This document shows positions 18,667 to 35,072 of a stretch of DNA of 35,197 nt, piece after piece (positions within the stretch are counted from its first letter, which is position 1; each line of letters starts with the position of its first letter). Made by a program: the position numbers and the translations under genes. The notes under the pieces are model-generated. The model was not told the origin of the DNA, made no database searches, and saw only the letters and a program-made list of their open reading frames with translations. This DNA is from Candidatus Faecimonas gallistercoris (GTDB lineage: Bacteria > Bacillota_I > Bacilli_A > RF39 > UBA660): positions 1 to 35,197 of the forward strand of contig DVGU01000065.1 in assembly GCA_018712565.1 (NCBI GenBank), in the 5' to 3' direction.

Positions 18667-20772
18667 ATGAAAAGAAAATTGATGTGGGTATTAACAGGAG
18701 TAATACTTTTTGTAATGCCCTTCATAGTAGTAAATGCAGATACACAAAATGGCTGGGTACAAGAAAATGGCAAGACTTACTATTATGAAAACGGTGAGAA
18801 AGTAAAAGGGTTTAAAGAAATCGACGGAAAAACTTACTTTTTCAGTAATGTAAATAGTGTCCTAAAAACAGGAGTTCAAAAACTAAATAATGATACATCA
18901 CAAATGTTTTATCTAAACAATGATGGAACAGTCTATCATGGTTGGAAAAAGATAGAAGGCAACACTTACTATTTTGGTGATAACCATTATGCTATAAGAG
19001 GATTTAAAGAAATTGATGGACAAATGTACTTTTTCAGCAATATAAATAATGCCCTAAAAAAAGGAGTCCAAAAACTAAATAATGATATTACTCAAATGTT
19101 TTATCTAAACAATGATGGAACAGTCTATCATGGTTGGAAAAAAATCGATGGCAACACTTACTATTTTGGTGATAATCATTATGCTGTAAGAGGGTTTAAA
19201 GACATAGGTGGAAACACTTACTTTTTCAGTATGATAAATAATACCTTAAAAACAGGAGTCCAAAAACTAAATAATGATATTACCCAAATGTTTTATTTAA
19301 ACAATGATGGAACAGTCTATCATGGTTGGAAAAAGATTGATGGCGCCACTTATTATTTTGGTGATGATTATTATGCAGTAAGAGGATTCAAAAATATTGA
19401 AGGAAAGACCTATTTTTTCAGTAATGTAAATAATGCTTTAAAAACAGGATGGCAAAAGTTATATAATGATCGTAGCAAAACATTCTATTTAACAGAAGAG
19501 GGAATTGTTTGTGATGGTTTGCAAACAATTGATAAAGATACTTACTATTTTGGAGAAGACCATTTCGCAAAAAGTGGTATTCAAACGATAGATGGAAAAA
19601 AATATTATTTCAATGAAGAAAATTATAAACTTTTAGTAGGATTACAAGAAGTAGATAATAAATTAATTTATACAAAAGATAATGGTGAAGTTCAATATGG
19701 TTGGCAAACAGTTAAAGGAAATACTTATTACTTTGGAGAAGATGGGTTCGCCGTAAAAGGCTTTCAACCAATTGATGGAAAAACTTACTTTTTTAGTAAC
19801 ATTAATTATGCTTTGAAAAAAGGACTACAACATATAGATGGAAGACCATTCTATTTAAATGATGATGGAAGTATCTATCAAGGATGGAAAACAGTAGAAG
19901 GAAATACTTATTACTTTGGAGAAGATAGCTTTGCCCTAAAAGGTTTCCAACCAATTGATGGAAAAACCTACTTTTTCAGTAATATCAACTATGCTCTAAA
20001 AAGTGGTTTTCAAACCTTAGACGGAAAGACATTCTATCTAAATAATGATGGAACATTATTTCAAGAATCAGGTTTTCAAACCATAAATAATAAAAAATAT
20101 TATTTTGAAAATAATTATGTAATAAAAGGATCGAAAGAAATAGAGGGAAAAACCTACTACTTTGATACAAAAACAGGAGAATTAAAAACAGGCGTTTATA
20201 AACAAAATGGAAATGAATATTATTATGATAATTATGGGAAATTAACTAAAATTCAATACATACCTAAATATTATAGTCAAAGAGATAGCAGATGGAGTAA
20301 TACATATTACGGTTCTGGAAATATGAAAAATTCCGGTTGTGCTCCAACAAGTATGGCCATGGCCTTCAGCAGTATCTTAGAAAGAACTATTTTACCAGTA
20401 GATGTTGCATATTATTTATATCATAAAACAACAGAATTTAATAAACCAACCTTAGGTGCAAGTGGACGCGCTGTCCAGTTAGCTGCTTCACACTTTGGAG
20501 TAAAATGGAAAGGACTAGCAAGCACAACAGAAATAGCCAATGCTTTAAGTAATGGTAAAATTGTCTTTGCCAATGTAGGACCTGGAAAATTCACCTCTCC
20601 TGGACTAACCCATGCTATTGTATTGTATAAAAATGAAAATGGAAATACCCTAGCAATGGATCCCTATAATTCAGGAAACAATGGAAAAATAAGCATAAGT
20701 ACAGTCTGGGCACAACGTAGTAAGAACTCTTACGATTTAAGAGGAGGATATGCATTTTATGCCCTAGGATAA
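18667..20772 (+). CDS. exported cell-wall-binding repeat protein with C39-like cysteine peptidase domain
   Basis: A signal peptide (1 to about 25, cleavage after VNA) is followed by about 24 choline-binding-type repeats of roughly 20 residues (about 27-530; pattern GWxxxxGxxYYF), four blocks of which form a 64-residue higher-order repeat. The C-terminal domain (about 537-701) is a papain-like C39_2-type peptidase: Cys558 in SGCAPTSMAM, His649 in THAIVLY and Asp665 in MDPYNS form the catalytic set. Such domains cleave peptides, possibly peptidoglycan cross-links or secreted proteins. Ribosome binding site GAGAGGT. Its repeats are almost the same as those of the lysozyme gene at 27158. Several repeats carry GF in place of GW, so the ligand may not be choline; no phosphocholine genes are in the window. 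Confidence 0.88.
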   Translation: MKRKLMWVLTGVILFVMPFIVVNADTQNGWVQENGKTYYYENGEKVKGFKEIDGKTYFFSNVNSVLKTGVQKLNNDTSQMFYLNNDGTVYHGWKKIEGNTYYFGDNHYAIRGFKEIDGQMYFFSNINNALKKGVQKLNNDITQMFYLNNDGTVYHGWKKIDGNTYYFGDNHYAVRGFKDIGGNTYFFSMINNTLKTGVQKLNNDITQMFYLNNDGTVYHGWKKIDGATYYFGDDYYAVRGFKNIEGKTYFFSNVNNALKTGWQKLYNDRSKTFYLTEEGIVCDGLQTIDKDTYYFGEDHFAKSGIQTIDGKKYYFNEENYKLLVGLQEVDNKLIYTKDNGEVQYGWQTVKGNTYYFGEDGFAVKGFQPIDGKTYFFSNINYALKKGLQHIDGRPFYLNDDGSIYQGWKTVEGNTYYFGEDSFALKGFQPIDGKTYFFSNINYALKSGFQTLDGKTFYLNNDGTLFQESGFQTINNKKYYFENNYVIKGSKEIEGKTYYFDTKTGELKTGVYKQNGNEYYYDNYGKLTKIQYIPKYYSQRDSRWSNTYYGSGNMKNSGCAPTSMAMAFSSILERTILPVDVAYYLYHKTTEFNKPTLGASGRAVQLAASHFGVKWKGLASTTEIANALSNGKIVFANVGPGKFTSPGLTHAIVLYKNENGNTLAMDPYNSGNNGKISISTVWAQRSKNSYDLRGGYAFYALG
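18808..19575 (+). repeat. four tandem 192-base units in the C39 repeat-protein gene
   Basis: Units start at 18808, 19000, 19192 and 19384, exactly 192 bases (64 codons) apart, each made of 21-, 23- and 20-residue wall-binding motifs. The first three are nearly identical in DNA; the fourth has diverged (FYLTEEGIVCD in place of FYLNNDGTVYH). Unit number could change by slippage or recombination without breaking the frame. Confidence 0.85.
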
Positions 20773-27157: not shown

Positions 27158-29725
27158 ATGAAAAAGAAAATTATATTCATGTTAACAATAGTAACACTGT
27201 TTTTAGCACCGGTCATAGTAGCAAATGCAGATACACAAAATGGCTGGGTACAAGAAGATGGACAGACTTACTATTATGAAAACGGTGAGAAGGTAAAAGG
27301 ATTCAAAGACATAGGTGGTAAAACCTACTTTTTCAGTAATGTAAACAGTGCCTTAAAAACAGGAGTCCAAAAGCTAAATAATGATATCAGTCAAATGTTT
27401 TATCTAAATGCTGATGGAACAGTCTATCATGGTTGGAAAAAAATCGATGGTGCCACTTATTATTTTGGAGAAGACAATTATGCTGTAAGAGGCTTCAAAG
27501 ACATAGGTGGAAAAACGTACTTTTTCAGTATGGTAAATAATGCTTTAAAAACAGGAGTCCAAAAACTAAATAATGATATCAGTCAAATGTTTTATCTAAA
27601 CGCTGATGGAACAGTTTATCACGGTTGGAAAAAAATTGATGGTGCCACTTATTATTTTGGCGATGACCATTATGCTGTAAGAGGCTTCAAAGACATAGGT
27701 GGCAAAACTTACTTTTTCAGTATGGTAAACAACATCTTAAAAAGTGGTGTACAAAAACTAAATAATGATATTACCCAGATGTTTTTCTTAAATGATGATG
27801 GAACAGTATATCATGGTTGGAAGAAGATTGATGGTGCCACTTATTATTTTGGTGATGACCATTATGCTGCAAGAGGATTCAAAGAGATCGATGGACAAAC
27901 ATACTTTTTCAGTATGGTAAATAATATATTAAAAACAGGATGGCAAAAACTAGATAATGATAGTAGTAAAACATTCTATTTAACAGAAGATGGAGTTGTT
28001 TGTGACGGTTGGACCACCATTGATAAGGATACCTATTATTTTGGAGAAGACCATTTCGCAAAAGGTGGAATGAGGCAAATAAATGGGAAAAGTTATCACC
28101 TAGATGAAGAAAGTTATAAATTACTTACAGGATTGCATGAAAGTAATAATAAATTAATTTATTCTAATGATGTTGGAGAAATTCAATATGGTTTTCAAAC
28201 AATCAACGGGAATAAATATTATTTTGCCGATGATGGTTATGCCATAAGTGGATTTAAAGAAATAAATACAAAAGTATATTATTTTGATACCGAGACTTTC
28301 AAAATGTTGATAGGATTACAAACGGTTAATAATAAATTAATTTATACAAACGATTTAGGAGAAGTTCAAGACGGTTGGCAGACAATCGGTAAAGATACTT
28401 ATTATTTTGGAGAAGATCATTTCGCAAAAAGTGGTATTCAAACGATAAATGAAAAAAAATATTATTTCAATGAAGAAAATTATAAACTAGTAGTAGGATT
28501 ACAAAAAATAGGTGATAAATTAATCTATACCAATGCTGCTGGAGAAGTTCAATATGGCTGGCAAACAGTAGAAGGAAACAAATATTACTTTGGAGAAGAT
28601 GGTTTCGCTGTAAAAGGGTTCCAACCAATTGATGGAAAAACTTACTTCTTTAGTAACATTAACTATGCTTTGAAAAAAGGATATCAAGAAATAGATGGAA
28701 GACCATTCTATTTAAATGATGATGGAAGTATCTATCAAGGCTGGCAAACAGTTAATGGAAACAAATATTACTTTGGAGAAGATGGCTTTGCTTTAAACGG
28801 ATTCCAACCAATTGATGGAAAAACTTACTTTTTCAGTAACATCAACTATGCATTAAAAACAGGATGGCAAATGCTAAATGAAAATAAAAGTAATATATTC
28901 TATTTAAGTGATGAAGGAACAGTAACATATGGAAAAATAACACTGGAAGGAAGAGACTATATCTTTGGTGATGACGGTTTCTTAGATGGTTTTGTATATA
29001 AAAATGGTAAATGGTACTATTATAATCCAGATGGAAGCCTTGCTAAAGGAATACAACGTATGGCTGGAAGATATTTTCAATTTAATGAAATAACCGGTGC
29101 CTTTGAAAAATATGTTAATCAAAGAATAGTAATAGATGTCTCTCATCATCAAGGAGATATTGATTGGCAAAAAGTAAAAAATAGCGGCTTAGTAGATGCA
29201 GTAATCTTAAGAGCAGGATATGGAGTAAGTTGGATGGATGATAAATTTATGCGTAATGTAGCAGAATTAAATCGTCTAGGAATTCCATACTCAGTATATT
29301 TATTTAGCTATGCAGAAAGTGCGAAAGAAGCATCAATGGAAGCAGATAATTTAATTAATATTATTAAAAATAGTCAAGCTAATATCGCATCAGATATTTT
29401 CTCAATCTATTACGATTTAGAAGACTGGACTATAGGATCTACAGGAGAAAATAGTAATGGTATTAGCAAACAAACATATGAAGCAATGTATAATTCTTTT
29501 GCAAGTAAAGTAGAAAATGCATTAGGTACAGAAGTAAAAATTTACGCATCTAAAGCCTTTATAGAAGATAGATTCCCAACTTCATTAAGAGAACATGTAG
29601 GCTGGGTTGCTCAATGGGGACCTCAAAATACATATACAGGTACTTATGAAGGATGGCAATATACAAACTGTGGAAGTATTCCAGGAATATCCGGATGTGT
29701 AGACATGAGTATATTCTATTACTAA
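27158..29725 (+). CDS. exported cell-wall-binding repeat protein with GH25 lysozyme domain
   Basis: The signal peptide (cleavage near ANA, about 25) and first repeats are nearly identical to the C39 protein at 18667. About 30 wall-binding motifs (27 to about 650) include four 64-residue blocks. The C-terminal 200 residues are a GH25 muramidase that cuts the MurNAc-GlcNAc bond: IDVSHHQGDIDW with Asp660, YYDLEDW with Asp753 and Glu755, VAQWGP, and the ending WQYTNCGSIPGISGCVDMSIFYY (positions 833-855). Monocistronic between a hairpin and a terminator. Together with the C39 protein it makes a pair of wall hydrolases with a shared targeting region but different catalytic ends. Confidence 0.93.
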   Translation: MKKKIIFMLTIVTLFLAPVIVANADTQNGWVQEDGQTYYYENGEKVKGFKDIGGKTYFFSNVNSALKTGVQKLNNDISQMFYLNADGTVYHGWKKIDGATYYFGEDNYAVRGFKDIGGKTYFFSMVNNALKTGVQKLNNDISQMFYLNADGTVYHGWKKIDGATYYFGDDHYAVRGFKDIGGKTYFFSMVNNILKSGVQKLNNDITQMFFLNDDGTVYHGWKKIDGATYYFGDDHYAARGFKEIDGQTYFFSMVNNILKTGWQKLDNDSSKTFYLTEDGVVCDGWTTIDKDTYYFGEDHFAKGGMRQINGKSYHLDEESYKLLTGLHESNNKLIYSNDVGEIQYGFQTINGNKYYFADDGYAISGFKEINTKVYYFDTETFKMLIGLQTVNNKLIYTNDLGEVQDGWQTIGKDTYYFGEDHFAKSGIQTINEKKYYFNEENYKLVVGLQKIGDKLIYTNAAGEVQYGWQTVEGNKYYFGEDGFAVKGFQPIDGKTYFFSNINYALKKGYQEIDGRPFYLNDDGSIYQGWQTVNGNKYYFGEDGFALNGFQPIDGKTYFFSNINYALKTGWQMLNENKSNIFYLSDEGTVTYGKITLEGRDYIFGDDGFLDGFVYKNGKWYYYNPDGSLAKGIQRMAGRYFQFNEITGAFEKYVNQRIVIDVSHHQGDIDWQKVKNSGLVDAVILRAGYGVSWMDDKFMRNVAELNRLGIPYSVYLFSYAESAKEASMEADNLINIIKNSQANIASDIFSIYYDLEDWTIGSTGENSNGISKQTYEAMYNSFASKVENALGTEVKIYASKAFIEDRFPTSLREHVGWVAQWGPQNTYTGTYEGWQYTNCGSIPGISGCVDMSIFYY
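27299..28066 (+). repeat. four tandem 192-base units in the GH25 repeat-protein gene
   Basis: Units start at 27299, 27491, 27683 and 27875, again 192 bases apart, and are in the same register as those at 18808-19575. As in the other gene, the fourth unit diverges to the FYLTEDGVVCD form. Between the two genes these blocks give several hundred bases of near-identity in direct orientation, about 8.5 kb apart. Confidence 0.85.
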
Positions 29726-33700: not shown

Positions 33701-34039
33701 ATGCTAGCTATGAAATTTCAAATAAAAAGGGGAATCATGTTTATTAGATTAGAAGGAGAACTGACAAACTATAATTTTTCTAAAGTAGCAGAAAAAATTA
33801 ATTATTTATTATATAGTCAGGGAATATTAGTATATGTATTTAATTTAGCAAAAGTAACCAAGATGGATAAAAGTTTATTTGAAAATATCCAAAATAAACT
33901 AACAGAAATTTTTCTAAAATGCGGAAGTGTAGCTTTTTGTGGAATATCCAATAAAGTAAGAAAAAGAATAGGAGAAAGATATGGACAACTATTCTATATC
34001 GCAAAAGAATATGAAGTATTTCAATATATTAGTATATAA
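33701..34039 (+). CDS. STAS-domain protein, SpoIIAA-like anti-sigma factor antagonist
   Basis: 112 aa with the STAS fold pattern: IKRGIMFIRLEGELTN, then ILVYVFNLAKVTKMDKSLF, a GSVAFCGIS strand, and a final helix/strand. The MDKS segment aligns with the MDSSG loop of SpoIIAA and places a Ser at 58, the position phosphorylated in SpoIIAA, although the following Gly-Leu-Gly is lost. In known systems such proteins release a sigma factor from a kinase/anti-sigma partner. A sigma factor gene follows after 15 bases. The ATG at 33701 is favoured by AGAGGTG five bases upstream; ATG at 33710 is the alternative. The family call is moderate. Confidence 0.65.
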   Translation: MLAMKFQIKRGIMFIRLEGELTNYNFSKVAEKINYLLYSQGILVYVFNLAKVTKMDKSLFENIQNKLTEIFLKCGSVAFCGISNKVRKRIGERYGQLFYIAKEYEVFQYISI

Positions 34040-34054
34040 AGGAGAGAAAAGAAA

Positions 34055-34690
34055 ATGGAAAACGTATTGGAATATGAAAATTTAATTTATAAGATGATTA
34101 GTCAATATAAAAGTTTTGATCAAGAGGACCTATATCAAGTAGCTATGATAGGTCTCATGAATGCGAAAAAAAACTATAATCCAAAGGAAAAAGCAAAATT
34201 TTCAACTTATGCTTATTACTACATCTTAGGAGAAATAAATAATTATATTTCTACAAGCAACCAAGTCAAAGTAAGTAGAGATTTACTACGACTCAATAAA
34301 AGTTTAGAACATGCAAAAGAGGTAATGAGTCAAAGATTAAAAAGAGAACCAACAACAGAAGAATTATCTGTATTTTTAGAAGTTCCTATACAAAAAATAG
34401 AAGAAGCATATCTAGCAACAAGACAAGTAGAAAGCCTAGATTATGCTTATGAAGAAGAAAATGATACGTTATATAACAATTTAGGACAAGAAGAACAAGC
34501 AATGACTGAAGAAATATTAGACTTAAAAAATGCACTAGCAACACTCCCAAAAGAAGAAAAACAATTGATTATTGCAAGATACTACAATGATATGACCCAA
34601 CAAGAAACTAGTAAAACATTAGGTATGAGTCAAGTACAAGTATCTAGAAAAGAAACAAAAATATTAAAGAAATTAAAAACGACACTGTAA
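34055..34690 (+). CDS. sigma-70 family factor of the SigF/SigB type
   Basis: 211 aa. Region 2 covers DLYQVAMIGLMNAKKNY and FSTYAYYYILGEINNYI (about 26-70); region 3 begins at KVSRDLLRLNKSLE and includes REPTTEELSVFLEVP; region 4 is LPKEEKQLIIARYYNDMTQQETSKTLGMSQVQVSR (positions about 168-202), with the helix-turn-helix near the end. FSTYA, GEI and VSR are typical of the sporulation and general-stress group 3 factors. It recognises alternative promoters on core RNA polymerase. AAAGGAGAG precedes the ATG. The STAS gene upstream points to antagonist control, but no anti-sigma kinase (SpoIIAB/RsbW) gene lies between them or elsewhere in the window. Confidence 0.88.
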   Translation: MENVLEYENLIYKMISQYKSFDQEDLYQVAMIGLMNAKKNYNPKEKAKFSTYAYYYILGEINNYISTSNQVKVSRDLLRLNKSLEHAKEVMSQRLKREPTTEELSVFLEVPIQKIEEAYLATRQVESLDYAYEEENDTLYNNLGQEEQAMTEEILDLKNALATLPKEEKQLIIARYYNDMTQQETSKTLGMSQVQVSRKETKILKKLKTTL

Positions 34691-34718
34691 AAAAACGGGT
34701 CAAATTCCTAGTTTTTTC
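34689..34718 (+). terminator. probable terminator after the sigma factor gene
   Basis: AAAAAAC (about 34690-34696) pairs with GTTTTTT (34711-34717), with GG/CC pairing inside the stem. A-T rich and with a short T run, so only moderately convincing. Confidence 0.5.
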
Positions 34719-34741
34719 ATGATAAAATAGCGTATATACTA

Positions 34742-34772
34742 TTGACAAATTTACCCCGGGGGGGAGTATAAT
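34742..34772 (+). promoter_or_regulatory. promoter with a G7 tract in its spacer
   Basis: Perfect TTGACA (34742-34747) and perfect TATAAT (34767-34772) are 19 bases apart. The spacer contains CCCC (34754-34757) followed by GGGGGGG (34758-34764), striking in AT-rich DNA. The spacer is two bases longer than the optimum used elsewhere in this window (17). An AATAG...CTATT dyad overlaps the -35 box. Confidence 0.7.
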
Positions 34773-34808
34773 TTATAAGAATAGAGAATAAAGGTAGGAG
34801 TAGTATAT

Positions 34809-35072
34809 ATGAAAAGAAATCAAATAATAATATTATTAGTATTCACTATAATGATTTCTGTTATTTCAATAATCACAAGTAATTCTGTTTATGCCCTAGG
34901 AGAAAATTATCCTGCGAATATTACCTTAACCGCAGATACAACAGAGTTAGTATTAATAGAACAAGGAAATAATAAAATAGCCATACCAGCTAATATTAAT
35001 TATAAAGAAAACACAGAATCGAATTTATCAAATCCAATATTTTTCACAATGTCAAGTGTTTTTAGCATTTGA
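34809..35072 (+). CDS. small exported protein, possibly truncated
   Basis: 87 aa: a signal peptide (hydrophobic 6-24, cleavage after VYA near 29), then about 58 residues rich in beta-type sequence (ITLTADTTELVLIEQG, IAIPANINY). No family recognised. GGTAGGAG stands eight bases before the ATG and a strong promoter lies upstream. The mature part looks like the beginning of an Ig-like or surface-protein domain that stops early; the last residues (FFTMSSVFSI) do not continue that character. It may be a genuine small secreted protein or a gene broken by a frameshift or rearrangement near 35030. Confidence 0.55.
   Translation: MKRNQIIILLVFTIMISVISIITSNSVYALGENYPANITLTADTTELVLIEQGNNKIAIPANINYKENTESNLSNPIFFTMSSVFSI

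Follow-up and report, generated by a model that had tools for sequence, protein, structure and literature searches.

Does the run of G residues that separates the -35 and -10 boxes of a promoter in an uncultured gut bacterium switch the surface-protein gene behind it? The promoter lies near the end of the window, that is, the whole 35,197-nucleotide stretch of DNA analysed here, which is an entire contig (C46) of the genome of Candidatus Faecimonas gallistercoris (G000; 1.29 Mb in 74 contigs, about 89% complete). A preliminary description of this DNA had reported perfect promoter boxes enclosing a G7 tract in a 19-bp spacer, and these elements were confirmed exactly, at positions 34742-34772. 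A homopolymer tract is thus located between recognisable -35 and -10 boxes, as G7 inside TTGACA-19-TATAAT, and the TATAAT box lies 36 bp from the start of an open reading frame for an exported protein. Judging from their sequence, the boxes are those of a primary-sigma (SigA-type) promoter, and we regard the promoter as real.

Table. Features of the promoter region and its flanks, in window coordinates.
Feature	Positions	Strand	Basis or remark
Sigma factor gene of the sporulation type (sigF-like), 5' of the promoter	34055-34690	+	
Terminator-like sequence (ctagtttttt), between sigma gene and promoter	34691-34725	+	sequence
-35 box TTGACA, perfect consensus	34742-34747	+	pattern search and sequence
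Spacer AATTTACCCCGGGGGGGAG, 19 bp (C4, then G7)	34748-34766	+	19 bp is also the mode of the class
G7 tract, with CCCC (34754-34757) before it and AG after it	34758-34764	+	sequence
-10 box TATAAT, perfect consensus	34767-34772	+	pattern search and sequence
5' part of surface-protein gene, 87 aa, signal peptide-like start	34809-35072	+	homologue match
End of insertion element, to contig end	35068-35197		88% identical to the IS end in G004:C35

The 87 residues encoded downstream of the promoter are 67% identical to the beginning of a 506-aa protein of genome G004, and a similar protein of G001 shares 44% identity. Both homologues have a SpaA prealbumin-like domain as well as a signal-like start, and a C-terminal membrane segment or anchor is present in the G004 protein. 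These features indicate that the gene encodes a cell-surface protein. The exported protein that had been proposed downstream is therefore supported by its signal-like start and its surface homologues, but the gene is truncated here, its frame ending at 35072, about codon 87 of a protein of ~506 aa. From 35068 onwards the sequence matches the end of the G004:C35 element, next to which lies an open reading frame with a DDE_Tnp_1 transposase domain; thus, the gene is either interrupted by an insertion sequence or fused to one where the contig ends. Elsewhere in the window, two large exported proteins (18667-20772 and 27158-29725) carry many short aromatic repeats resembling cell-wall-binding repeats; judged by eye, one of them ends in a peptidase-like domain and the other in a lysozyme-like domain.

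The genes that follow the sigma factor gene differ among relatives. Genes resembling spoVAC and spoVAD, named here from a reading of their sequences rather than by a family search, are found directly after it in G002, G003, G005, G007, G008, G009 and G010, and a surface gene of the window type occupies this position in G000, G004, G011 and G014, with two surface genes followed by spoVAC in G004. Terminator-like ends similar to that in the window precede surface genes in loci L009 and L206. Comparison of the sequences upstream of the same-type surface gene revealed no G tract at the same position in G004, G011 or G014, and the corresponding promoters read TTGAAA-17-TACAAT in G004 and TTGACA-18-TAAAAT in G011. 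Consequently, the tract of G000 is either recent or has been lost elsewhere. Across loci L203-L217, the interval 3' of sigF holds spoVAC/spoVAD, surface-protein or zinc-ribbon genes depending on the genome, which makes it a variable insertion site within a sporulation locus. The usual gene order is spoIIAA-spoIIAB-sigF. At these loci (33701-34690 in the window), a STAS gene resembling spoIIAA directly precedes the sigF-like gene in every one of the 16 genomes that make up the genus here, and the anti-sigma gene spoIIAB is absent from the interval between the two in all 16.

The perfect boxes by themselves are unremarkable: the window contains one perfect TTGACA-N14-22-TATAAT pair, the site at 34742, and at least one such pair appeared in 27 of 100 shuffled windows. 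The whole genome of G000 holds 24 perfect pairs 14-22 bp apart, versus 12 for the reversed control; their spacers have a mode of 17 bp (11 of the 24), and only two measure 19 bp. The preliminary description had suggested a search for other promoters with G tracts. This search was successful in relatives (see below), but among the 24 perfect pairs of G000 the window site alone has a G tract inside the spacer, and the family-wide pattern search found no promoter tract of G8 or longer in this genome. Six consecutive G residues occur at 26 positions in G000, and the longest run is 7.

Might the G/C-rich spacer have arisen by chance or drift, or be what is left of a former poly-G promoter, with no present switching function? 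The tract is short, is absent from the three relatives compared above, and precedes a gene that is already disrupted; moreover, counts of G6 and G7 runs elsewhere in G000 are close to the expectation from base composition. By contrast, for the 24 perfect spacers taken together only about 0.0004 G/C runs of at least 7 are expected, and searches of the genus find promoters of this type against very few control matches. We therefore consider this explanation unlikely, although it survives better than the other alternatives.

The wider searches established promoters with a poly-G tract between TTGACA and TATAAT as a genuine class in this family of bacteria. The pattern TTGACA-N-G8+-N-TATAAT was found in 63 of 386 family genomes, several of which contain 10-23 copies, whereas the reversed pattern gave 0 matches in the same 386 genomes; a G5+ pattern was found in 35 of 193 family genomes. 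Within the genus (16 genomes, one reversed-control match), boxes enclosing a G5+ run are also present in G005 (two sites), G006, G007 and G015, to which a relaxed pattern adds G004 and a third site in G005. The poly-G promoters of G004, G005, G006 and G007 precede prepilin-like surface proteins with an N_methyl domain; the gene at the third G005 site has been lost, and no open reading frame was found behind the G015 site. The G006 promoter, CGGGGGGAGTATAAT, matches the right half of the window promoter site. Like the window site, promoters of G169, G407, G274, G271 and other family members combine the same boxes with a spacer G run and exported proteins downstream; unlike it, they have uninterrupted tracts of G9-G12 and many paralogues per genome.

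When named genomes were scanned with one version of the pattern, at least 119 stretches matched, mainly in gut Clostridia and Bacilli, and the matches listed include some from Saccharibacteria, Streptobacillus, Streptococcus, spirochaetes and Helicobacter. Inspection of loci L083-L201 placed poly-G spacer promoters in gut Clostridia, where they accompany lipoproteins, and in Saccharibacteria, Streptobacillus notomytis and spirochaetes.

To characterize what the class drives, we called N-terminal signal or transmembrane segments with a simple hydropathy rule rather than a trained predictor. On this basis, such segments are present in 36 of 43 open reading frames downstream of the family promoters (about 84%), compared with 19 of 61 other open reading frames in the same loci (p about 1e-7); the 43 include two csoR genes, at which the matched site is a palindromic operator rather than a poly-G tract. 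Among the matches listed in named genomes, the corresponding figures are 80 of 112 downstream and 152 of 665 control frames.

Tract length differs between otherwise like promoters. We compiled by hand, from the genus and family pattern searches, a list of 177 places that excludes CsoR-type sites and a handful of irregular ones. In this list, 21 promoter skeletons recur within a single genome, and 13 of these 21 differ, among the matches listed, only in the number of G residues; the differences come from assemblies, and assembly error in G runs may contribute to them. Twenty places with repeated skeletons were read in four genomes, and most proved to be distinct paralogous genes rather than one locus assembled twice; some of the 20 are situated at contig ends. 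Tracts long enough for frequent slippage commonly comprise 8 or more residues. Those of the class are mostly G8-G12, which puts the window tract, G7 followed by AG, at the extreme short end.

The spacers of the class also differ from those of ordinary perfect promoters: in the DNA analysed, 17 bp is the commonest length of the latter, found in 29 of the 48 that measure 15-20 bp. Poly-G promoter spacers peak at 16 and at 18-19 bp, and only 12 of 126 in the family and 7 of 121 among the matches listed in named genomes measure 17 bp, paralogues being included in these counts, which are thus not independent. Either most copies are off the optimum, so that their genes would be OFF or expressed at a low level, or the optimal spacing is different when the spacer contains a G tract; a minimum at 17 bp flanked by two peaks favours the former.

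A G/C block astride a promoter could also be a repressor operator. We considered whether a CsoR-type metal-sensing repressor might bind over the promoter and place the surface gene under metal control. G000 has a single CsoR gene, adjoining a copper ATPase, and at csoR promoters of the genus and of the family the motif ATACC..GGGTAT lies within the same pair of boxes. Of all 17-mers in the window, the one at this site is the most CsoR-like; it scores 16.8 bits (true sites, 20.6-29.0), and rises to 22.3 bits once two central bases are skipped. However, an AT-rich model gives high scores to C/G-rich sequence, and scores of 19 bits are attained by some poly-G promoters as well. Relative to ten aligned sites of fixed length, the arms of the 16-17-bp dyad ATACC...GGGTAT are 2 bp too far apart in the window, and the operator of G000's own csoR, ATACCTTGGTAGGGTAT, lacks a long G run. 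Furthermore, the gene downstream encodes a surface protein and not a function in copper handling, as expected of CsoR targets (csoR or metal-export genes), and other family promoters in which CCC directly precedes the G run (G169 and G120) have G9-G11 tracts with exported surface proteins downstream. Regulation by CsoR is accordingly improbable, more so than chance or decay. At the csoR loci themselves (L056, L074 and L044-L053), a clear ATACC..GGGTAT dyad in or next to the promoter likely represents the operator of a self-regulating CsoR.

Promoters controlled by MerR-type activators typically have 19-bp spacers, and the window spacer, of that length, has a central palindrome, CCCCGGGG, but this spans only 8 bp instead of an extended dyad and the 19-bp poly-G spacers of relatives have no dyad, so that activation by a MerR-type protein is very improbable.

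The reading that we prefer, with a probability of roughly 0.6, is that the window site is a SigA-type promoter and a short member of the poly-G spacer class, at which slippage in the tract would alter expression of the surface protein. Replication slippage in the G tract would change the distance between the -35 and -10 boxes; the changed distance would change promoter strength, so that the surface protein might be expressed in an on/off or a graded manner. The phase-variable promoter envisaged in the preliminary description thus gains from the recurrence of the class in the family, its position before exported proteins and the length differences between like promoters, but loses at the window copy itself. 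There the case is weaker because the G7 tract is short, is broken by AG and is unshared with three relatives, and the gene is cut by the insertion sequence. The switching rate of this copy is likely to be low, and G5, which would give the 17-bp spacing favoured in the preliminary description, is no more than a candidate for its ON state.

Comparable systems are established in other bacteria. In Neisseria meningitidis, a poly-G run in the spacer of the porA promoter causes phase variation through spacer length (van der Ende et al. 1995, as cited in PMC5084427). The porA promoter resembles the window site in that the G run between the -35 and -10 boxes sets their spacing, and so the expression of a surface protein, and differs in belonging to another phylum and in that its variation was measured, whereas the window tract is shorter and interrupted. 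Changes in promoter tract length also switch the surface lipoprotein genes vlp of Mycoplasma hyorhinis and vmm of M. mycoides, and the vmm repeat sits in the spacer, as the window tract does (PMC10502178); these are A-tract or dinucleotide repeats rather than G tracts, in mycoplasmas of another family. From the porA and vlp mechanism we infer that the tracts described here would slip in living cells and that slippage would affect expression. Among gut commensals, slippage at G tracts of sortase-pilus loci controls pilus and adhesin expression in Bifidobacterium breve, and a tract of G11 slips more than one of G10; the authors mention G tracts in promoter spacers too, but the proven cases are intragenic frameshifts at G10-G11, unlike the spacer tract of the window (PMC9187656). 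Since the porA, vlp and vmm repeats in promoters or their spacers and the B. breve G tracts are established, the mechanism is already known; the taxon and the scale look new, judging from a limited literature search, which turned up no study of phase variation in gut bacteria of the RF39 type.

The best-documented cases of transcriptional phase variation through spacer homopolymers come from a few pathogens. Of more interest than the window copy is the set of poly-G surface promoters that recurs across the family. Tentatively, and with somewhat less than even confidence, we propose that the large sets, of up to 23 promoters per genome, form a surface-protein switchboard in this uncultured gut family, in which most copies are off 17 bp and their genes would be OFF or low in most cells, while one or two slips would suffice to turn each of them ON. 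The scarcity of 17-bp spacers yields a concrete prediction on the default state. If the proposal is true, many-copy, surface-linked switching in uncultured gut Bacilli and other gut lineages would explain cell-to-cell diversity at the surface of commensals.
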